Source of the DNA: Aquibacillus rhizosphaerae
GTDB taxonomy: Bacteria; Bacillota; Bacilli; Bacillales; Amphibacillaceae
Direction: 5' to 3'
DNA: 64,000 nt
NCBI RefSeq assembly: GCF_030282825.1
Contig: NZ_JASTZU010000027.1
Location: forward strand, 99,058-163,057
Positions within the stretch are counted from its first letter, which is position 1, and each line of letters starts with the position of its first letter. The notes under the pieces are model-generated. The model ran no database searches and was not told the DNA's origin. It saw nothing but the letters and a program-made list of their open reading frames with translations. A program made the position numbers and the translations under genes. This document shows, piece by piece, positions 16,291-64,000 of the stretch.

Positions 16291-17415
16291 CTAGTCAAAG
16301 ATTCCATGTCTAATTATATTTACATCTATATTAAAATTAACGTCAATATTGGGATACATTTCACGCCATTTTTCCTCTGTTAATTCATTATTCCGTGTTT
16401 CTTGATTATAGGTGGTTCCAAACCCCATTGGGTCTACATTCAGTTCTTTCGTCTTATCCATTACCTCTTGTAATTGTTCTTTAAAATTATCTTCAATTTG
16501 TTTTTCTAGTTTTTTTAATACCTTCTCATCTTTAATAAGCAATGGAACAGATAATTCCATTAGTCGAGCATCTAACGAAATATTGACGTCGTATGAAAGA
16601 TTTTTTTTGTCATTTAGTAATATCTTGGATTTACTCCTGATTTCACTTAATACGAAATGAAACTCTTCATCCTTGTGCTTATCTTCATCTTCCTCGATAA
16701 ATTCTTCAAAGGGTTGTTTGGATAAAGACATTTCTTGTTTACCTGCTTTAAAGCTTTCAGTCATTAACTTAACTAAGAATGTTTGTTTTGGTGATAATGA
16801 ATCAACATATACATCGTTTTGAAATAGAGCAATGCTTTCAATTACAGGCTTTTGTTTTTCAATAGTTACCAAAGGTTGTATCGGATCAATGCCTATGTCC
16901 TCATATTTATGAACAAAATCAAAGAAATCACTCTCAGGGAGAATCTCCCGCTTCTGATTATTATCAATTAAGTTGTAAAGGTACTTGCTTAAATCAATGG
17001 ACGTATCAATTGTTAGGACTTCTCGTGCTGTCGTTTCACTAACTAGTAAATATAAACTAGCTGGCTCCTCAGCATTTTTGAAATGCGGGCTTAGCACACG
17101 CATAATCCCGGTTTCTGCAAGCTCTTTCCCAAAAACTTTAACCCGTATTTGTCCAGTAACGAGTTTATAATTTGTTTTTAAGTTAGCTGTGTCTAGTGCG
17201 CCTTCATAGGTATTAGCTTGACTTTCAACGGCTTGAATCGCTTCTGGGATGTCTGGATCAAATTGTTTGTAGAGAAATGTGTTGTCTAAAGCTTTATCTT
17301 CATGAAGTAAATCTGCTCCATAGCTGCTTACAATCCCAAGTGTTTCAATTTGTTTTGGAGGAGCGCATCCAACTAACAGTGTTAGCATAAGCACTATAAG
17401 CGACCTTTTTTTCAA
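16291..17415 (-). CDS. spore germination receptor C subunit (Ger(x)C lipoprotein)
   Basis: Lipoprotein subunit of a GerA-type nutrient germinant receptor in the spore inner membrane. Signal peptide with lipobox LLVGC (C17), then the Ger(x)C domains: PKQIETLGIVSSYGAD near the N-terminus, the LVTGQIRVKVFGKELAETG segment, and a C-terminal part ending NVDPMGFG..W..MYPNIDVNFNIDVNI. 374 aa is a normal length. It is the last gene of an A-B-C operon and its start overlaps the B-subunit stop by 4 nt. The germinant cannot be deduced. Confidence 0.93.
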   Translation of the reverse strand: MKKRSLIVLMLTLLVGCAPPKQIETLGIVSSYGADLLHEDKALDNTFLYKQFDPDIPEAIQAVESQANTYEGALDTANLKTNYKLVTGQIRVKVFGKELAETGIMRVLSPHFKNAEEPASLYLLVSETTAREVLTIDTSIDLSKYLYNLIDNNQKREILPESDFFDFVHKYEDIGIDPIQPLVTIEKQKPVIESIALFQNDVYVDSLSPKQTFLVKLMTESFKAGKQEMSLSKQPFEEFIEEDEDKHKDEEFHFVLSEIRSKSKILLNDKKNLSYDVNISLDARLMELSVPLLIKDEKVLKKLEKQIEDNFKEQLQEVMDKTKELNVDPMGFGTTYNQETRNNELTEEKWREMYPNIDVNFNIDVNIIRHGIFD

Positions 17416-18524
17416 CTATGATTCCCCCTGTTTTTATTCATTTTCTTTTTAATAATTACTAGTGGATACAGAACAAAAGGGTAAATAAATACAATCCAAA
17501 AGCCAACTTGTGCAACATAGTCGATAATTAATTGGATTGTAAATTGATCTCTAATTAATCCGCCACAAATAAATAATAAGAATACAACACCATAGACCGC
17601 CTTCTTTTGAGGTAACTGGTACATACGTTTTAGTCCGTAAGAAATCATCCAGGTAATTAATATCATATTCGGCACAATAACCATCATCCATTGAGTCACA
17701 ATAATTAAGTCGAACCTTTCAATGACGGCATATTCAATTAATTTATACAAGATTAATACAGGCCAAATCGAACGCTCCAATAAATCACCGCCAAAAAAAC
17801 CTATGGAGATAAAGGTGACTAACAGAACAAGAAATGTAGTCATCACGATTCCTAACTGAGTAGGTAGTTGAGCCTTTTTTTTATTATCAATAAAGGGATA
17901 TAAGAAGAAAAGAATTTCCAAACCAAGAAAAGAGTAAGTGGTTGCTCTAGCACCTTTTAATAACTCCATTGGTGTAGCTTCAAACATCGGTTTAAAATGA
18001 CCGAAATCCATTAAGGTCATTGGTTTATAAAGAAAAAAAATTAACCATAATGTCAGGATAAAGAAGGTGAACGTAACCCCAACTGCTACTCTTAGACCAC
18101 CAAGCACTGCATAAGTAACGATAGATAATATCATGATGCTTAGCAGCCAGGGAGACAACATTGGATATATAAAAACTTGAACAACTTGAATGTAATTAAT
18201 CAAAATAGACACTAGACTACTAAATAAATAAATAATAAAAATTGTACCGAGCACTCTACTAATCCATTTTCCGAAAAGATCTGTTTGAATACCAAAAATA
18301 TCTGTGTTTTTATATTTTTTAAGTATAGCAAACATGACGAAAATGATAAGATGCATGCATAATCCTGCAATGATAACAGATATCCAAGCATCTTGTTTAG
18401 CTTCCTTAAAGATATACCGAGGTGTACTCATAATCCCCGTTCCGGTTTGGATGCTAGATATGATGAAAAACAAATAGAAAGCTTTCACACGTAGGCCCGG
18501 CCTAATAGTTATATTGACATCCAT
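17412..18524 (-). CDS. spore germination receptor B subunit (GerAB/ArcD/ProY transporter family)
   Basis: Integral membrane subunit with about 10 helices, of the amino acid-polyamine-organocation superfamily; in GerA-type receptors it forms the germinant-binding site. Seen: FYLFFIISSIQTGTGIMSTP near the N-terminus with the G-x-G-I-M helix break, and the YSFLGLEILFFLYPFI segment. The start is ATG 18524 because GGAGGG lies 5 nt before it and it follows the A-subunit stop by one base; an earlier in-frame start would lie inside the A gene without a ribosome site. 370 aa. Confidence 0.93.
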   Translation of the reverse strand: MDVNITIRPGLRVKAFYLFFIISSIQTGTGIMSTPRYIFKEAKQDAWISVIIAGLCMHLIIFVMFAILKKYKNTDIFGIQTDLFGKWISRVLGTIFIIYLFSSLVSILINYIQVVQVFIYPMLSPWLLSIMILSIVTYAVLGGLRVAVGVTFTFFILTLWLIFFLYKPMTLMDFGHFKPMFEATPMELLKGARATTYSFLGLEILFFLYPFIDNKKKAQLPTQLGIVMTTFLVLLVTFISIGFFGGDLLERSIWPVLILYKLIEYAVIERFDLIIVTQWMMVIVPNMILITWMISYGLKRMYQLPQKKAVYGVVFLLFICGGLIRDQFTIQLIIDYVAQVGFWIVFIYPFVLYPLVIIKKKMNKNRGNHS

Positions 18525-18525
18525 C

Positions 18526-20049
18526 CTATCCCTCCAAATCATCTATATCTTTTTTCTTTGTTGATTTTTTCTCCTTATAACGCATGTCATCCTTTAAGCG
18601 GTAGGATAAAGCACGTTTATTTCCCACTCCAAAAGGTAACCGGAACAACGCATTATCTAAATCTTTATATACAAATGGATAAACTGGTAAGAAATAGGGG
18701 CGACCTAGTGATGATATTCTCAATAAATGAATAATCAAAAGTGATAATCCAAATGTTACGCCAATAATTCCAAACATTCCGGCCAGAATGATTAGCGGAT
18801 AACGAATTACTCGAATCGCAGAACCCATAAGATAGCTTGGTGTTGTAAAAGATGCTAATGCACTCATTGCAATTACAATAATCAAGACGTTACTTGTAAG
18901 ACCGGCTTCAACAGCTGCTTGACCTAAGACAATCCCACCAACGATACCAATGGTTTGTCCTACTTTAGTGGGTAGCCTTGCCCCTGCTTCGCGAAGTAAT
19001 TCAATGATTAATTCTAAAAACAATACTTCCATTATCGGTGGAAAAGGCACTTTAGATCGTGATTCCCCAAGCGTAACTAATAAATTAGTGGGTAGTACTT
19101 CATAATGGAATGTAACAACAGCGACATAAACCGGGGTCATTATAAACGAAATAAACATTGCGATGAACCGAAGCATACGGAAAAATGTTGCAACGTTCCA
19201 TCGAAAATAGACATCTTCTGTTGATTCAAAAAAACTAAAAAAGGTGCTTGGTGCAACTATTCCTTCAGGACTACCATCTGTTAATACACCAACTTTACCT
19301 TTACTTACCCCGTAGGAAAAACGATCAACCCGCTCTGTTAAGTAAAATTGTGGGAAAACTGATAACGATGAATCCTCTATATATTGCGCGAGAACAGAAC
19401 TGTCCTCTATATCATCTACTTTTAAATCATTCAGTCGTTGTCGCATCGTTTGAACATCTTCATCATTGGCAAGTGACTTTAAATAGACAAGACGTACTTC
19501 TGTTGGTAAACGCTCACCAATTGTAAATTTTTCGGCTACTAATTCAGTTGAATGGATGTTAGAGCGGACAACGTTTAAATTAATATCTATTGATTCCGTA
19601 AATGAAGTTTGTGGACCGATAACAATCGATTCTCTTTCGGGCTTTTCTATCGGTCTTTGGTGCATTTTCAATAGTATAAAAGTGGTAACTTGTTTTTCAT
19701 TTTCGATATAGATTCCAACAGAACCGCTGATTAATTCATTGCATACATCTTCTACTTTATCCTGCTGTTTTGCATTGCCTAACGGTAAATTATTTATTAG
19801 GTTTGATGCAGTCGATTCTTCTTGTCCATATATTAAAGGTGTGAGTAAGCTTTCATTTAAGCTAGTTTTATCAACCAAATGGGAAATATAAAATACTACT
19901 ATTTTTTTATTCTGTACGTCTAATTGTTTAAACGTAAGGTCTGCTTCATCGTGTAAGTGATCTCTTATTTTTTGTTTTAACTTCTCAATGGACAAAGGGA
20001 AACTGCCCTCATTATTGTTTTTCTGAAATGGACGTGGTCGCTTATTCAA
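18526..20049 (-). CDS. spore germination receptor A subunit (GerA family)
   Basis: Large subunit of the receptor, 507 aa. A cytoplasmic N-terminal region (about 1-290) carries GSVGIYIE and the TEVRLVYLKSLA and ERVDRFSYGVSKGKVGVLTDG segments; the C-terminal half has about five membrane helices with the family's FPPIMEVLFLELIIELLREAG and the IGIVGGIVLGQAAVEAG motif. The start is TTG 20049 with GGAGGG 6 nt upstream. Operon order A-B-C matches gerA and gerB of B. subtilis. Such operons are transcribed in the forespore by sigma-G; I did not find a confident -10/-35 to prove it. Confidence 0.94.
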   Translation of the reverse strand: MNKRPRPFQKNNNEGSFPLSIEKLKQKIRDHLHDEADLTFKQLDVQNKKIVVFYISHLVDKTSLNESLLTPLIYGQEESTASNLINNLPLGNAKQQDKVEDVCNELISGSVGIYIENEKQVTTFILLKMHQRPIEKPERESIVIGPQTSFTESIDINLNVVRSNIHSTELVAEKFTIGERLPTEVRLVYLKSLANDEDVQTMRQRLNDLKVDDIEDSSVLAQYIEDSSLSVFPQFYLTERVDRFSYGVSKGKVGVLTDGSPEGIVAPSTFFSFFESTEDVYFRWNVATFFRMLRFIAMFISFIMTPVYVAVVTFHYEVLPTNLLVTLGESRSKVPFPPIMEVLFLELIIELLREAGARLPTKVGQTIGIVGGIVLGQAAVEAGLTSNVLIIVIAMSALASFTTPSYLMGSAIRVIRYPLIILAGMFGIIGVTFGLSLLIIHLLRISSLGRPYFLPVYPFVYKDLDNALFRLPFGVGNKRALSYRLKDDMRYKEKKSTKKKDIDDLEG

Positions 20050-20209
20050 GAATTTCCCTCCACATATGCACAGTTCTATCTTTAGTATGGGAGAATTAAA
20101 GTGAAAATATGTGATAATTGAAGTGGAATAATGTTTTTAATTTTTCTAGATAGGAATTAGTTGGATTTGATGAAGGCGAGAGAAGGTGTTTTTAAGGCTT
20201 AAAATAAAC

Positions 20210-20236
20210 AAAAACCTCCAAGAGTAGGAGGTTTTT
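20210..20236 (-). terminator. terminator of the carbonic anhydrase gene
   Basis: AAAACCTCC, loop AAGAGTA, GGAGGTTTT; on the minus strand it lies just after the stop and is followed by a U-run. Confidence 0.8.
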
Positions 20237-20239
20237 ATT

Positions 20240-20794
20240 CTAATATCCCTTTTGAATGACATCTAATTGTCCCGTATTTGGATCAATAACAAGACCGTGA
20301 ACAGGGACACTTTCAGGTAATAAAGGGTGATTGCGAATGACATTTACACTATGCTGAACAGATTCTTCCACGCTGTCAAATCCTTGTAACCAATCTTCCA
20401 CATCAATTCCGGCGTATTCTAGTGTTTTGATTGTATCCTGTTTAACACCTCTTTGTTGGGCTTTTTCGATAAGTTGTTTACCATTAAAGCCTTTCATTCC
20501 ACAGTCGTGATGCCCAATTACTAAGATTTCATCTGCCTGAAGTTCATAGACAGCTACCAATAAACTTCGCATAATACTCCCAAATGGGTTTTTAATGATA
20601 GCTCCTGCATTTTTAACGATTTTTGCATCTCCATTTTTAATGTTTAATGCATTTGGTAAAAGTTCTACCAATCGGGTATCCATACAGCTAAAAATAATGA
20701 TTCGCTTGTCCGGAAACTTGTCTGTCTCAAATGGAACATATTTTTGTTCCTTAGCAAATGCCTTATTATATTCAATTAATTCATCTAAGTACAT
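20240..20794 (-). CDS. beta-class carbonic anhydrase
   Basis: Zinc enzyme that interconverts CO2 and bicarbonate; 184 aa. Zinc-site motifs are complete: C37-x-D39-x-R41 (SCMDTRL) and H95-x-x-C98 (GHHDCGM). It resembles the YtiB-type beta-CA of Bacillus. The start is ATG 20794 with AAAGGAGATG before it; an upstream ATG 81 nt earlier has no ribosome site. It is monocistronic. An SbtA-type bicarbonate transporter and an MpsC-like protein in the same window make a shared role in bicarbonate supply for biosynthesis plausible, but the genes are 15 kb apart. Confidence 0.93.
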   Translation of the reverse strand: MYLDELIEYNKAFAKEQKYVPFETDKFPDKRIIIFSCMDTRLVELLPNALNIKNGDAKIVKNAGAIIKNPFGSIMRSLLVAVYELQADEILVIGHHDCGMKGFNGKQLIEKAQQRGVKQDTIKTLEYAGIDVEDWLQGFDSVEESVQHSVNVIRNHPLLPESVPVHGLVIDPNTGQLDVIQKGY

Positions 20795-20895
20795 AACTAC
20801 ATCTCCTTTTAAAGAACTTAAAATAATAATATCAGATAATGAATAGTAATCACAGTTTATGAGCCTAAAATGCATACAGTAAAGTAAAAATTATG

Positions 20896-20924
20896 TTGAC
20901 TTACCAAAATTTTCATAATATAAT
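20896..20924 (+). promoter_or_regulatory. sigma-A promoter of the bmr leader
   Basis: TTGACT and TATAAT separated by exactly 17 nt, about 37 nt upstream of the first leader peptide start. Confidence 0.75.
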
Positions 20925-20960
20925 AAAAACGCATTAAAAAATCGAAAGGAGGTCACGAAA

Positions 20961-21041
20961 ATGAAAAAAGTACATGTAGTAAATCATTCAGCTAACTTAA
21001 TATGTGAAGTGACCTTCAGAAGAGCAACTTACTATAATTAA
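20961..21041 (+). CDS. 26-aa leader peptide of the bmrCD operon
   Basis: ATG after a consensus AAAGGAGG opens a 26-codon frame (MKKVHVVNHSANLICEVTF...TYYN). Codons 17-19 contain GTGACCTT (21009-21016), which is complementary both to AGGTCAC in the peptide's own ribosome site (20950-20956) and to AAGGTCAC in the 5' arm of the terminator at 21068. That arrangement is the signature of a ribosome-controlled transcription attenuator, as known for the B. subtilis bmrB-bmrC-bmrD system. The peptide sequence itself is not one I recognise. It is too small to identify by homology, but the nucleotide pairing supports a regulatory role. Confidence 0.7.
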   Translation: MKKVHVVNHSANLICEVTFRRATYYN

Positions 21042-21067
21042 ACTATTTGTTTTTATTTATAACTGTT

Positions 21068-21098
21068 AAGGTCACGACTATTTGTCCGTGGCCTTTTT
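21068..21098 (+). terminator. attenuator terminator 1 in the bmr leader
   Basis: AAGGTCACG pairs with CGTGGCCTT (one G-U) and ends in a U-run. Its 5' arm can alternatively pair with GTGACCTT inside the leader peptide. Confidence 0.75.
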
Positions 21099-21117
21099 CT
21101 ATTCTTTTTTAAAGAAG

Positions 21118-21148
21118 CGCATACGTCTAGGGACGTGTGCGTTTTTTT
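21118..21148 (+). terminator. terminator 2 in the bmr leader
   Basis: CGCATACGTC, loop TAGG, GACGTGTGCG (one G-U pair) followed by seven T; a stronger terminator than the first, still upstream of bmrC. Confidence 0.8.
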
Positions 21149-21281
21149 GTTATTAAAAGGAAAAAAATGTAATTTAATTCAGCGAAGTCTGGATACTATC
21201 CAGTTTCTATAAATTAGGTTTTATTTCGATGATTCGTTTTAGAAATAAAACTAATAAAAAGTTGGAAGGAGAGAGGTAACG

Positions 21282-21338
21282 ATGATGAAGCAAATGAGAA
21301 AGCATTGGTTTATGAAAGCATGGAGAGAGAGCGGATAA
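21282..21338 (+). CDS. 18-aa leader peptide, copy 1 (before the truncated bmrC copy)
   Basis: MMKQMRKHWFMKAWRESG preceded by GGAGAGAGG. It has the same length, the same M11, W14 and the same ESG-stop ending as the peptide directly before intact bmrC. It is followed 33 nt later by a truncated copy of the bmrC start, so this is the older or duplicate copy of one leader-plus-gene-start module. Confidence 0.55.
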   Translation: MMKQMRKHWFMKAWRESG

Positions 21339-21371: not shown

Positions 21372-21509
21372 GTGTTTATAATATTCAGAAAGATTGACTG
21401 GTTTTTTACAGAATTTATGAAGCGATATAAATTAGTATTTGTAATTACCTTTAAGAAAAATAGCCCAATCATTGATCGAATGGTATTGATCGTTTCAAAA
21501 CAAAATTAG
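21372..21509 (+). pseudogene. truncated duplicate of the bmrC 5' end
   Basis: A 45-codon frame from GTG, preceded by TAGGTGAGG, starting VFIIFRKIDWFFTEFMKRYK. This aligns with the start of intact BmrC, MFMIFKKLDWFFKQYWKRYT, including the upstream TAGGTGA element. After about 25 residues the similarity ends and the frame closes at 21509. It is best read as the remnant of a tandem duplication of leader and bmrC start, most of which was deleted; it could still be translated into a short peptide. Confidence 0.7.
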
Positions 21510-21534: not shown

Positions 21535-21591
21535 ATGATTATAAAAAAGAAAGCAGAGGTTTTAATGGAAGAGTGGAAGGAAAGCGGTTAG
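21535..21591 (+). CDS. 18-aa leader peptide, copy 2 (directly before bmrC)
   Basis: MIIKKKAEVLMEEWKESG, 25 nt before the bmrC start, with AAAGGAG upstream. It matches copy 1 in length and in the WKESG/WRESG ending. An overlapping ATG at 21531 in another frame gives a 22-aa peptide; the match to copy 1 favours 21535. Confidence 0.55.
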   Translation: MIIKKKAEVLMEEWKESG

Positions 21592-21616: not shown

Positions 21617-23374
21617 ATGTTTATGATTTTTAAAAAATTAGATTGGTTTTTCAAACAATATTGGAAAAGGTACACGTTTGCTATTTTAGCATTAATTGTT
21701 GCTAGTTTTATTGATATTATACCACCTAAATTAGTGGGAATGGCGATAGATGAGATACAATTTGACACCTTAACAATGGAAAGAATTATAGATTTACTAT
21801 TGCTCTATGGGGCACTTATATTCCTAAGTTATACGATTTCTTTTTTGTGGGATTACACCCTGTTTGGTGGCGCCGCTATTATGGAGAAATTAATGCGTAC
21901 ACGATTAATGCATCACTTTTTACGCATGACACCAACTTTTTATAGTAAGTTTCGGACAGGGGATTTGATGGCCAAGTCAACCAATGACTTAAAAGCAATT
22001 GCTACGACGACAGGTTTTGGAATATTAACGCTAGTTGATTCTAGTATCTTTATGTTTATGATTATTGTAGTTATGGGATTTACAATTAGTTGGAAGTTAA
22101 CTTTAGTAGCATTAATTCCACTACCAATTATGGCAATTGTCATGCATAAGTATGGAAGTATCATTCACGAACGGTTTATGAAGGCGCAAGCTTCATTTAG
22201 TGATATGAATAATGAGGTTTTAGAATCCATACGTGGCGTGAGAGTGATTCGAGCATATGTGCAAGAAACCCAGGATGAAAAACGATTTAATGATATGACA
22301 GAGGATGTGTATCAAAAAAACTTAGAGGTAGCTAAAGTTGATGCGCTGTTTGAGCCAACGATGAAAATTCTAGTAGGGTTATCCTATACAATTGGCTTAG
22401 GATACGGAACGACGCTCGTATTTCAAAATGCCATTACTTTAGGTGAGCTTGTTTCTTTCAATGTATATTTAGGAATGTTAATTTGGCCAATGTTTGCTGT
22501 TGGAGAATTAATTAATGTATTGCAACGAGGAAATGCTTCCTTAGATCGTGTCAATGAAACATTAACCTATCCGAATGATTTGGATCAACCTAAATATGAT
22601 AAACATGCAAAATCTATTCTTTCCCCAAACAATATAATATTTAAAACACTCAGCTTTACTTATCCTGGAAGTGAAGTACAGAGTCTAACTAATGTTAACT
22701 TGGAAGTACTTAAAGGACAAACAATCGGTATTGTTGGCAAAACAGGCGCAGGTAAAACCACTTTATTAAAACAACTATTAAGAGAGTATCCAGGCCGAAA
22801 AGGTACGTTAACAATTTCAGGAGTACCAATTGAAGAATTTTCGATTGATCAAACCCGAGCTTGGATTGGTTATGTTCCTCAAGACCAAGTGATGTTTTCA
22901 AAAACAATCCGAGAGAACATCCAATTTGGGAGAACAAATGCGACAGATAAGGAAATAAATCGCGTAATGGAAATGGCATCGTTTTTAGATGATATTAACA
23001 ACTTACCTCAAGGTCTAGATACAAAAGTAGGGGAGAGCGGAGTCACCTTGTCGGGAGGACAGAAACAACGGGTTGCCTTGGCCCGTGCGTTTATAAAAGA
23101 TCCAGAAATTCTTCTCCTAGATGATGCCTTGTCAGCAGTTGATGGGAAGACGGAAGCAATGATTATTAACCATCTAAAAAATGATCGCCAAGGTAAAACC
23201 ACCTTTATTACCGCTCATCGAATGTCAGCAGTACAGCACGCTGACACGATTGTTGTTTTGCATGAGGGGAAGGTTATTGAAATGGGCCCACACCAGGATT
23301 TAATAGATACTAATGGCTGGTACAGCAGACAATATAAATTACAACAGGTAGTAGAGCAGGGGGAGGTCTCTTAA
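21617..23374 (+). CDS. bmrC: heterodimeric multidrug ABC exporter subunit BmrC (YheI)
   Basis: Half-transporter with six membrane helices (about 1-315) and a C-terminal ATPase (about 335-585). Length of 585 aa from ATG 21617 matches B. subtilis BmrC; the GTG at 21608 overlaps the ribosome site. Walker A GKTGAGKTT at about 374, signature LSGGQKQR at about 478 and Walker B ILLLDDALSAVD at about 498. The residue after the Walker B Asp is Asp, not the catalytic Glu, so BmrC supplies the degenerate ATP site, as expected. Stop overlaps the bmrD start by one base. Pairs with BmrD to export drugs; expression is governed by the leader upstream. Confidence 0.95.
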   Translation: MFMIFKKLDWFFKQYWKRYTFAILALIVASFIDIIPPKLVGMAIDEIQFDTLTMERIIDLLLLYGALIFLSYTISFLWDYTLFGGAAIMEKLMRTRLMHHFLRMTPTFYSKFRTGDLMAKSTNDLKAIATTTGFGILTLVDSSIFMFMIIVVMGFTISWKLTLVALIPLPIMAIVMHKYGSIIHERFMKAQASFSDMNNEVLESIRGVRVIRAYVQETQDEKRFNDMTEDVYQKNLEVAKVDALFEPTMKILVGLSYTIGLGYGTTLVFQNAITLGELVSFNVYLGMLIWPMFAVGELINVLQRGNASLDRVNETLTYPNDLDQPKYDKHAKSILSPNNIIFKTLSFTYPGSEVQSLTNVNLEVLKGQTIGIVGKTGAGKTTLLKQLLREYPGRKGTLTISGVPIEEFSIDQTRAWIGYVPQDQVMFSKTIRENIQFGRTNATDKEINRVMEMASFLDDINNLPQGLDTKVGESGVTLSGGQKQRVALARAFIKDPEILLLDDALSAVDGKTEAMIINHLKNDRQGKTTFITAHRMSAVQHADTIVVLHEGKVIEMGPHQDLIDTNGWYSRQYKLQQVVEQGEVS

Positions 23375-25401
23375 TGAAATCCACTGAAAAAAGACTGTTT
23401 GCGTATGCCATGTTCTATAAAAAAACTATTTTTATTGGATTAATTTGTTTGCTAATCGCAGTGTCACTTGAATTAGCTGGGCCTTTTATCGCTAAACGTA
23501 TCATCGATGAACACATAACAGGAATTGAATCGACCTGGTATCAAGTCGGGGAGAATGCAGATAAAGAAACAGTTGTTTATAAACGTAACTTTTACAAAAG
23601 GTCAGATAGATTTGATGCTGATGATAAAAAGATTGGAGAGGGAACCCTATTACAAGTTAATAGAGACTTTTATTGGGTAAATGAAGCGGTTCCCCTATCT
23701 GGTACAAGAACCATAAGTAATGGTGAATTAATAATACAAACACCTGAGCTAAACAAACGTTATTCTCCTGAAAAATTATCACTTAATCAGCTTTATCAAT
23801 TTTTCAAACCGGAACAACGCCCGATTGTGTACTTGTTGGTCATTTATGTCCTATTATTACTCATTGCGGCAGCTTTTCAATTTGGTAAAACCTTTCTGTT
23901 GCAAAAAGCATCTAATCGTATCGTGCAAAAAATGAGAAATGATGTTTTTCATCACACGCAAAAAGTACCAATCAATTATTATGTTGATAGACCGGCCGGA
24001 AAAATAGTAGCTAGAATAACAAATGATACAGAAGCCGTTAGAGACTTATATGAAAGAGTATTATCTATCTTTATAACTAGTATCATATATATGGCAGGGA
24101 TTTATGTGGCACTATTTCTATTAGATGCCCGATTGGCTGTATTCTGTCTATTATTAATTCCGATTGTTTACTATTGGATGAAACTATATAAATATTTTGG
24201 GACTAAATACAATACGGTAATTCGATCGACAATTAGTGAAATAAACGGCAATATTAATGAATCTATTCGGGGAATGTCCATCATTCAAGCTTTTAGCAAA
24301 GAAAAACAAGTGAAAAGTGAATTTGAGATATTAAATGAAAGACATTTTTTATACCAACGGAAATTAGTTAAGTTAAGTGCATTAACATCTCATAACTTGG
24401 TGACGGTATTAAGAAATTTGGCTTTTGTCGGATTGATATGGTATTTTGGTTCTTCGTCACTTGGTATAGAAAGTGTTGTAAGTGCAGGGGTTTTGTATGC
24501 CTTTGTAGATTATTTAAACCGTTTATTTGGTCCAGTTAATGACATTGTCAATCAATTACCCCTGTTGGAACAAGCGCGAGTTGCATCAAGCAGAGTATTC
24601 GAACTGATTGATCACGAAGGAGAAGAAAGACGTAACGAACCAATTAAACGGTATGATGGGCATGTTATTTTCGACTCTGTATCCTTTGCTTATAATGATG
24701 AAGACTTTGTTTTAAAGGATATTCATTTTAATATCTCTCCTGGTAAAACAGCCGCATTTGTCGGCCATACTGGTTCGGGAAAAAGCTCAATAATGAATCT
24801 TTTATTTCGTTTCTATGATCCACAAAAAGGTAGAATAATGATTGACGGAATAGATACTCAAACATTGTCGAGACAACAAGTTAGAAGTCATATGGGGATT
24901 GTTTTACAAGATCCATTTTTATTTAGCGGAACGATTTTGTCGAATGTAACCATGAATGACCAAGATATTTCCCGGGAAATGGCGATTAAAGCTTTAGAAT
25001 CAGTGGGAGCAGATCGCTTTATAGCGAAACTCCCTAAAGGTTATGATGAACCTGTAAATGAAGGTGCTAGTACATTGTCAATGGGAGAAAGACAATTAAT
25101 ATCTTTCGCTAGAGCATTAGCATTTAATCCAGCAATTCTGATTTTAGATGAAGCAACAGCTAATATCGACACGGAAACAGAATCCATGATTCAACGAGCA
25201 CTAGAGGTAATTAAAGATGGAAGGACAACATTAGTGATTGCTCATCGACTTTCTACTATACAACAAGCAGATCATATTTTTGTTTTGGATCATGGTATAA
25301 TTAAAGAACAAGGTAATCATCACCAGTTGATAAGAGAAAAAGGTATTTATTACAATATGTACCAAATGCAACAAGGTAAAATTAAAATAGCAGTTAGTTG
25401 A
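23374..25401 (+). CDS. bmrD: heterodimeric multidrug ABC exporter subunit BmrD (YheH)
   Basis: Partner subunit, 675 aa. Between the first and second membrane helices there is an extra region of about 90 residues (roughly 45-140, with GIESTWYQVGENADKETVVY), the extracellular domain characteristic of BmrD. ATPase domain: Walker A GHTGSGKSS at about 465, signature LSMGERQL at about 568 (non-canonical), Walker B ILILDEATANID at about 588 with a proper catalytic Glu. Combined with BmrC this gives one canonical and one degenerate ATP site. The stop codon is part of the start of a dispersed repeat. Confidence 0.95.
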   Translation: MKSTEKRLFAYAMFYKKTIFIGLICLLIAVSLELAGPFIAKRIIDEHITGIESTWYQVGENADKETVVYKRNFYKRSDRFDADDKKIGEGTLLQVNRDFYWVNEAVPLSGTRTISNGELIIQTPELNKRYSPEKLSLNQLYQFFKPEQRPIVYLLVIYVLLLLIAAAFQFGKTFLLQKASNRIVQKMRNDVFHHTQKVPINYYVDRPAGKIVARITNDTEAVRDLYERVLSIFITSIIYMAGIYVALFLLDARLAVFCLLLIPIVYYWMKLYKYFGTKYNTVIRSTISEINGNINESIRGMSIIQAFSKEKQVKSEFEILNERHFLYQRKLVKLSALTSHNLVTVLRNLAFVGLIWYFGSSSLGIESVVSAGVLYAFVDYLNRLFGPVNDIVNQLPLLEQARVASSRVFELIDHEGEERRNEPIKRYDGHVIFDSVSFAYNDEDFVLKDIHFNISPGKTAAFVGHTGSGKSSIMNLLFRFYDPQKGRIMIDGIDTQTLSRQQVRSHMGIVLQDPFLFSGTILSNVTMNDQDISREMAIKALESVGADRFIAKLPKGYDEPVNEGASTLSMGERQLISFARALAFNPAILILDEATANIDTETESMIQRALEVIKDGRTTLVIAHRLSTIQQADHIFVLDHGIIKEQGNHHQLIREKGIYYNMYQMQQGKIKIAVS

Positions 25402-63907: not shown

Positions 63908-64000
63908 TTTTATGGAGAGTTTGATCTTGGCTCAGGACGAACGCTGGCGGCGTGCCTAATACATGCAAGTCGAGCGCGTGAAGCAACTGGATCCCTTCGG
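63908..64000 (+). rRNA. rrsX: 16S ribosomal RNA, 5' end only
   Basis: TTTATGGAGAGTTTGATC, then CTCAGGACGAACGCTGG and GCAAGTCGAGCG mark the conserved 5' domain. The gene runs off the window. The exact mature end is set by analogy with B. subtilis. One unusual base is noted under findings: GATCTTGGCTC where GATCCTGGCTC is near universal. Confidence 0.95.

Follow-up and report, generated by a model that had tools for sequence, protein, structure and literature searches.

A candidate leader attenuator of alternately complementary RNA words, with two predicted terminators in series, ahead of a bmrCD-like pump operon in Aquibacillus rhizosphaerae and related bacilli

The window analysed here is a stretch of 64,000 nucleotides from the 4.69 Mb genome (G000) of Aquibacillus rhizosphaerae. 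It carries an operon for two ABC transporter halves, with best solved matches to YheI and YheH of B. subtilis, which we take to be the BmrC and BmrD of that organism. Ahead of the operon lies a leader with a promoter, a short open reading frame (ORF) and two predicted terminators. Upstream of the leader, positions 17412-20875 of the minus strand hold spore germination genes of the GerXA/GerXB type, and a carbonic-anhydrase-like gene of 211 aa (named by eye) is divergent from the switch. The window ends in the start of a 16S rRNA gene (63909-64000), and this SSU rRNA is the only match that the window gives to Rfam 15 at the gathering score, so the leader falls into no named RNA family. The features are as follows.

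20896..20924, plus strand: promoter TTGACT-17-TATAAT, 11 of 12 consensus bases, kept in relatives
20946..20956, plus strand: word 1, the leader Shine-Dalgarno (SD) site and its flank, AAGGAGGTCAC, with AGGTCAC at 20950-20956, read from the sequence and tabulated in 50 family elements
20961..21041, plus strand: leader peptide ORF of 26 codons, MKKVHVVNHSANLICEVTFRRATYYN, with its TAA at 21039-21041, read from the sequence
20994..21002, plus strand: codons for Asn-Leu-Ile (Ile as ATA); N-(F/L/I/Y)-I recurs directly ahead of word 2
21009..21017, plus strand: word 2, GTGACCTTC, partner of word 1 or of word 3
21068..21076, plus strand: word 3, AAGGTCACG, 5' arm of terminator T1 and alternative partner of word 2
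21068..21098, plus strand: predicted terminator T1 with U run, fold -14.2 kcal/mol (z -5.9), with covariation of its arms (below)
21084..21095, plus strand: word 4, GTCCGTGGCCTT, loop end and 3' arm of T1, with the T2 apex as second possible partner
21118..21148, plus strand: predicted terminator T2 with U run, fold -21.2 kcal/mol (z -6.6), present in all 50 family elements
21125..21134, plus strand: word 5, the T2 apex GTCTAGGGAC, partial complement of word 4 by family-level swap test and column ranking
21282..21338, plus strand: small ORF MMKQMRKHWFMKAWRESG, outside the switch core, with similar ORFs ending (E/D)SG-stop elsewhere
21372..21509, plus strand: small protein ORF of 45 aa with a GTG start, between switch and bmrC
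21617..23374, plus strand: BmrC-like (YheI) ABC transporter half, the main target (B. subtilis YheI, E 2.6e-233)
23374..25401, plus strand: BmrD-like (YheH) ABC transporter half (B. subtilis YheH, E 9.3e-238)

A preliminary description of this DNA had placed a three-way choice in the leader, and its coordinates and words (the SD AGGTCAC, codons 17-19 and the T1 5' arm) agree with the sequence base for base. Codons 17-19 (V-T-F) are formed by GTGACCTT at 21009-21016, the T1 5' arm reads AAGGTCAC(G) at 21068-21076, and the T1 3' arm reads CGTGGCCTT at 21087-21095 and is followed by a T run. The same description saw an identical word in both competing partners, and AGGTCACGA is indeed present twice, at 20950-20958 and 21069-21077. 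Words 1 and 3 share AGGTCAC, words 2 and 4 share GTGACC/GTGGCC, and the fifth word is the apex of T2. T1 starts downstream of the end of the leader stop codon and therefore lies outside the leader coding region, and by predicted fold T2 is the stronger of the two terminators. That T2 might be a terminator shared with an upstream gene was ruled out, as the upstream gene is divergent (20240-20875, minus strand). A small hairpin, CTGGATACTATCCAG at 21189-21203, followed by a T-rich stretch, sits between T2 and the small ORFs.

RNA folding had been proposed as a check on the preliminary description, and it spoke for the leader as a whole but not for the stretches with 1:2 or 2:3 alone. The whole leader (20931-21150) folds 4.5 standard deviations better than dinucleotide shuffles, none of 200 being as good. 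In its minimum-energy fold 20931-21055 forms 1:2 and 20976-21077 forms 2:3, with z of -1.1 and -0.3 against shuffles respectively, and once T1 is complete (20976-21102) it outcompetes 2:3. A mutually exclusive antiterminator (2:3) and terminator (3:4) are predicted from fold and covariation, with 1:2 as the predicted anti-antiterminator. The minimum-energy fold of the full length pairs word 1 with word 4 with 2:3 nested inside, an arrangement absent from the preliminary description; as a covarying alternative 1:4 gave z 0.0 in the swap test of family elements. The stretch 21077-21133 folds as word 4 with the T2 apex (4:T2), no better than its shuffles (z 0.15).

The full layout (promoter, SD AGGTCAC, leader peptide, GTGACC, T1 and T2) is found in 50 of the 159 genomes of the window's family. 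A pattern of SD flank, ATG and GTGACCT has matches in 80 of the 159, many of them by chance according to a reversed-pattern control, and the 50 elements are the candidates that were read and kept with all parts, 48 of them at pattern matches and two (G034, G017) from a DNA search. The parser yielded 36 of these and 14 were added by hand; the element of L043 lies on the strand opposite to its pattern match, for L084 the register of T2 was fixed manually after its sister, and one genus (g4) was carried under two labels, so that 28 labels stand for 27 genera. Outside the 50 are L070 (G124), with a leader ORF shortened by a stop, and L096 (G001), with words read by eye, whilst L009, L014 and L017 from the DNA search gave no parsable element. 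In L070 the leader ORF ends ahead of word 2 and, by eye, the downstream bmrC has a disrupted-looking start, as would fit a joint decay of pump and switch. A promoter with at least 10 of 12 consensus bases precedes 46 of the 50 elements against 4 of 50 shuffled controls, and an ORF spanning word 2 is present in every one. Order-wide, a stricter pattern matches 12 of 397 genomes. Five belong to the family, another five (L099, L105-L107, L110) lie beyond it and show this layout ahead of bmrC, and the remaining two (L108, L109) resemble chance matches.

The leader peptides diverge widely among the 50 elements while layout and words recur, and for this reason the observation is, on sequence comparison, beyond chance. 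GTGACC lies in the V-T frame in 44 elements and in another frame in 6, and because of this variation, together with the differing peptides, the word is seen to be kept as RNA and not merely as codons. Downstream of the switch bmrC is present in 43 of the 50; the other seven have a ~45-aa ORF and then a trypsin/HtrA-like gene (named by eye), and L015, which is without bmrC, carries a BmrD fragment.

Such a ~45-aa ORF follows the switch at 11 of the 50 loci, the window included (the others being L003, L004, L015, L016, L032, L060, L079, L080, L082 and L098). In the window and several other loci the N-terminal sequence, FRK(I/L)DWFF..KRY, is similar to the N-terminus of BmrC, and the tail is of the form ..ID..V.IVSK or IICRK; at the seven loci without bmrC it occupies the place of that gene, ahead of the HtrA-like gene. 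No homologues were found among the matches listed from a protein database. It is also apparent, by eye, that very short ORFs ending (E/D)SG-stop, often W(K/R)ESG, lie shortly upstream of bmrC in several genomes. The window has two, 21282-21338 and 21535-21591, which flank the 45-aa ORF, and others occur at the more distant bmrC loci L114, L117, L123, L124 and L139. They could serve as an additional leader or as a coupling ORF.

The pairings themselves were examined with a swap test, in which the duplex energy of a leader's own pair is set against pairs exchanged between genera, and with independent contrasts on a tree of bmrC proteins. The claim that one word pairs either with the SD flank or with the T1 5' arm is borne out, as 2:3 and 3:4 covary and 1:2 is kept class-wide; the search for conservation and covariation in relatives, proposed with that claim, did not refute it across the 50 family genomes. 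For 2:3 the swap gave z -2.2 (478/20,000), or -2.8 with wider arms (127/20,000), and the tree-aware contrasts came to 11.5 better and 4.8 worse, which is not significant (median sign p 0.14). The genome G001, of the same genus, has GTGGCC for word 2 and GGCCAC for word 3 in place of GTGACC and GGTCAC, a two-sided change that preserves the pair. The arms of T1 (3:4) gave z -5.4 (0/20,000), with tree-aware contrasts of 8.7 better and 1.1 worse (median p 0.02).

Within the family the words of 1:2 are nearly invariant (z -0.3), and the informative comparison is that among the leaders of bmrC homologues from the whole class. There the leader's own pair has -16.6 kcal/mol against -12.9 with other leaders (z -6.0, 0/20,000, n=17, a set that still includes three with GTGACC-type words, L099, L130 and L135), and over all 25 leaders z is -6.5. 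Considered singly, 12 of the 25 leaders have no more than 2 of 24 foreign SDs that equal or beat their own, and L130 has 17 of 24. These words are mostly unlike those of the window, for example GGTAGGA with TCCTACC in L139, so that it is the complementarity between SD region and distal leader codons that is preserved across the Bacilli. Leader starts were typed by hand for 18 of the 29 non-window loci, six loci were without a placed start (L112, L116, L117, L119, L120, L127), and the set leaves out L129, L131, L133, L134 and L136, all of family f50, as are L128 and L132. Since the own SD-codon complementarity beats the foreign, and mostly with differing words, it is very likely that these leaders have been selected for concealing their own ribosome site. 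Three of the distant loci (L112, L130, L135) have the same GTGACC/GGTCAC words, and L130 has CTCGTGA in T1 and TCACGAG in T2.

The bmrCD operon of B. subtilis is controlled by translation of the leader bmrB together with a terminator, and the 50S inhibitors lincomycin, erythromycin and chloramphenicol induce it through a loss of termination (PMC4191407). The leader in the window is alike in having a homologous bmrC/bmrD operon, a short ORF with an SD between promoter and bmrC, the translation of which is predicted, and a predicted terminator, antiterminator and anti-antiterminator (PMC4191407). The terminator and alternative structures of bmrB lie inside its coding region, nt 60-162 (PMC4191407), whereas T1 begins 26 nt after the stop of a 26-codon leader; here word 1 is the SD of the leader itself and T1 is followed by a second terminator, whereas the available text of the bmrB paper mentions one terminator (PMC4191407). 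By its anatomy, then, the leader appears to work like bmrB but is laid out differently, and the ~250 bases before bmrC are very likely a ribosome-sensing transcription attenuator made of alternately complementary RNA words.

A promoter for a pump that is followed by two terminators calls for explanation. The second strong terminator was seen correctly in the preliminary description but is not peculiar to this genome, as 11 of 18 class-level bmrC leaders have two clear tandem terminators (a further 2 have a weak second and 5 have one only). The T1 loop and 3' arm (word 4), the arm that is freed when the antiterminator forms, is complementary to the T2 apex in the family, and because of this match the second terminator is perhaps no separate device. 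Examples of word 4 and its T2 are UUUGUGGC with GUCACAAA, UUCGUGAC with GUCUCGAA (one mismatch), AUCGUGGC with GCUAUGGU and GUCCGUGAC with GUUAUGGAC, and the duplex of L051 reaches 12 pairs.

In the genus-level swap the own 4:T2 pair was better than the swapped (z -4.9, 0/40,000), with z -1.0 for a control taken from the flank of word 2. When 33 stretches of the leader were set against the T2 apex, the three over the T1 loop and 3' arm responded (z -3.1, -4.8, -3.2) and the other 30 ranged from -1.1 to +1.7, with no signal from the 5' UTR, the leader ORF or the spacers. The effect persists when each distinct T1 word is counted once (z -3.8, 6/10,000, n=16) and when the two commonest T1 words are removed (z -2.9, 38/10,000, n=12). 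For two-sided covariation between columns of T1 and T2, four of the eight predicted pairs, those on the loop side, rank 1, 3, 6 and 8 of 418. Among 83 generic terminators, the share that pair with word 4 no worse than its own T2 has a median of 1.2%, against 10.2% for the word-2-flank control. With word 3 withheld, 4:T2 (at least 5 pairs) is the minimum-energy fold at some transcript lengths in all 50 elements, a count that stands without a swapped control.

Other results tell against the coupling. Tree-aware independent pairs of 4:T2 came to 6.1 better and 6.9 worse, not significant by sign, and to 2.6 better and 5.0 worse when the loop-side bases were required to differ, again not significant; the three large contrasts in the tree all favour coupling (D -6.6, -10.4 and -10.8 kcal/mol). 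Inside the two commonest T1 word types, where there is little variation, z was -1.4 and -0.9, not significant. The top-ranked column pair reflects mostly one deep split, and the other four predicted pairs rank 43, 156, 249 and 257, two of them without any two-sided change. At class level the T1 3' half against the T2 5' half gave z -0.8 (4,075/20,000, n=15), which is weak evidence either way because some of the automatic T1/T2 assignments, those for L113, L105 and L128, are doubtful. In the window the 4:T2 duplex has -10.5 kcal/mol, no better than with the T2s of other elements (-10.3), and 10 of 83 unrelated terminators do as well, so the pair is only moderate there. Two of the T1-loop bases of word 4 in the window extend T1 by pairs on the far side of a bulge, and among the relatives L060 has a strong 4:T2 match. 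Part of the match arises from the T2 apices themselves, which are self-complementary and share words, and the permuted mean is already -9.5 kcal/mol.

As a finished T1 outweighs 2:3 in the window and a finished T2 outweighs 4:T2 in 40 of the 50 elements, antitermination and the opening of T2 must both be kinetic. T2 overtakes 4:T2 at 8-15 nt past its loop centre in 39 elements, at 24 nt in one and never in 10. Both would have to depend on timing, with the earlier word already waiting as its partner emerges.

The reading towards which these results lean, if only slightly, is that of a five-word domino attenuator, in which two terminators in series are switched by one decision, and it is the position of the ribosome that would make the choice. 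With no ribosome, or with one that has run through the leader, 1:2 would pair and hide the leader ribosome site, 3:4 (T1) would form and transcription would stop, and with a ribosome on word 2 the only option would again be 3:4. A ribosome slowed or stalled by a drug on the first few codons would cover word 1 but not word 2, so that 2:3 could form ahead of T1. Word 4 would thereby be left free to pair with the emerging apex of T2, T2 would fail too and bmrCD would be transcribed. By mere leakage through T1, word 4 would be locked in T1 and T2 would still halt the polymerase, and so T2 could serve as a leak guard that opens solely after true antitermination. Antibiotic-slowed ribosomes would in this way likely open both stops, with the pump made only when it is needed. 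We infer the drug induction, the translation of the leader and the kinetics from the anatomy and from B. subtilis.

The codons ahead of word 2 may have a lesser part in this. Of the 50 elements, 29 have N[FLIY]I among the 7 codons preceding word 2, and 38 have an ATA codon no more than 5 codons ahead of it. Where the frame of GTGACC differs, in 6 elements, the N-(F/L)-I motif still shares the frame of the start codon in 4, and it may be selected as codons or as peptide. A drug-arrest peptide at N-F-I was considered and set aside. With Ile in its P site a ribosome would sit over word 2, which would favour termination, and the motif is therefore possibly a pacing site only.

It is possible, if doubtful, that the attenuator has the three pairings 1:2, 2:3 and 3:4 only and that T2 is an uncoupled backup, with the pump expressed through leakiness of T2, an effect of the ribosome or a factor, or another promoter. 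The core pairings on which this depends are well supported, tandem terminators stand before bmrC class-wide too without the 4:T2 signal being seen there, and both the non-significant sign tests on the tree and the part of the match owed to the T2 apices would be expected of it. There is also a promoter-like site at 21405-21433 (9/12), the sole one listed between T2 and bmrC in a consensus scan that ended at 21500, although over the scanned region such sites show no excess (5 against 4.8 in shuffles). What this reading leaves unexplained is a 4:T2 signal that is sharply limited to the T1 loop and 3' arm and persists among rare word types, and a strong uncoupled T2 would block the output of a conserved promoter to bmrC.

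Control at translation, with 1:2 limiting how much leader peptide is made, this peptide or the hairpins affecting mRNA stability, and T1 and T2 as the ordinary ends of a short RNA, is improbable. It would accord with the class-wide hiding of the leader SD, and a read-through transcript could fold both 2:3 and 4:T2, but T1 has both a hairpin with a U run and a 5' arm with which word 2 can pair instead, and these are the hallmark of attenuators; moreover, bmrCD of B. subtilis is regulated at transcription termination (PMC4191407). Processive antitermination, by which an RNA or protein would modify the polymerase to pass both terminators and the word matches would be incidental, is more improbable still. 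It would explain how two strong terminators could be passed with one signal, yet the pairings covary and 16S rRNA is all that Rfam finds in the window, although a novel element of this type is conceivable. The five-word domino can be put as a chain of parity, in which 1:2, 3:4 and T2 leave both stops standing, whilst a ribosome on word 1, 2:3 and 4:T2 bring both down. That T2 is opened only by the freed arm of T1, making a leak-proof double lock of RNA alone, kept in Virgibacillus/Oceanobacillus-type bacilli before a drug pump and, in some genera, before a 45-residue protein, is a proposal for which the chances seem evenly balanced.

In the trp attenuator of E. coli the segments pair alternately as 1:2, 2:3 and 3:4. 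The window is like it in that alternating segments would be read by a ribosome (PMC4191407); it differs in that a drug-slowed ribosome and not a shortage of tryptophan would be sensed, in that word 1 is the leader SD, and in the fifth word that extends the chain. The vmlR leader of B. subtilis likewise has a uORF with an anti-antiterminator, an antiterminator and an intrinsic terminator, and its authors propose that formation of the antiterminator promotes a structure that opens a further downstream hairpin (PMC9226507), a domino of the same kind. In vmlR that hairpin, SL-4, occludes the SD of vmlR and is no terminator, whereas the second hairpin of the window is predicted to be one; mutation of SL-4 left leaky expression unchanged (PMC9226507). 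The vmlR uORF has 3 codons, and the SD that serves it is single-stranded and precedes SL-1 (PMC9226507). For a second hairpin of the vmlR type that competes with a released arm, the window's family offers the genus-level swap, the comparison of leader stretches, the counts by distinct T1 word and the column ranking, with the tree-aware and class-level tests not significant. Two adjacent Rho-independent terminators are also found in the ermK attenuator of Bacillus licheniformis (PMC4335068), as they are in the window by sequence and fold, and the rimP-leader of some Gammaproteobacteria has tandem terminators, one with a clear potential antiterminator, the available text making no mention of a leader peptide or of terminator coupling (PMC2965389).

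Among the literature matches listed, which were mostly open-access and included PMC8632094, PMC11109978 and PMC2965389, none of the available texts describes this leader from Virgibacillus/Oceanobacillus-type bacilli or a pair of terminators coupled through an exchange of arms; nor, among the matches listed, was a freed arm used against a second terminator, or the leader SD as word 1 across the Bacilli, found described. What is known is ribosome-mediated attenuation (bmrB, vmlR) and tandem terminators (ermK), and what appears new, among the matches listed, is the proposed coupling of the freed arm to T2 and the SD as word 1.

The known bmrCD attenuator thus gains a comparative anatomy across the Bacilli, in which the ribosome site of the leader joins the switch and many leaders have a second terminator. 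Should the domino prove true, one ribosome-sensing event would release two serial terminators and suppress leaky expression, an arrangement that could be reused in synthetic circuits, and leaders such as that of ermK, which also respond to antibiotics and carry tandem terminators, would be predicted to do the same.
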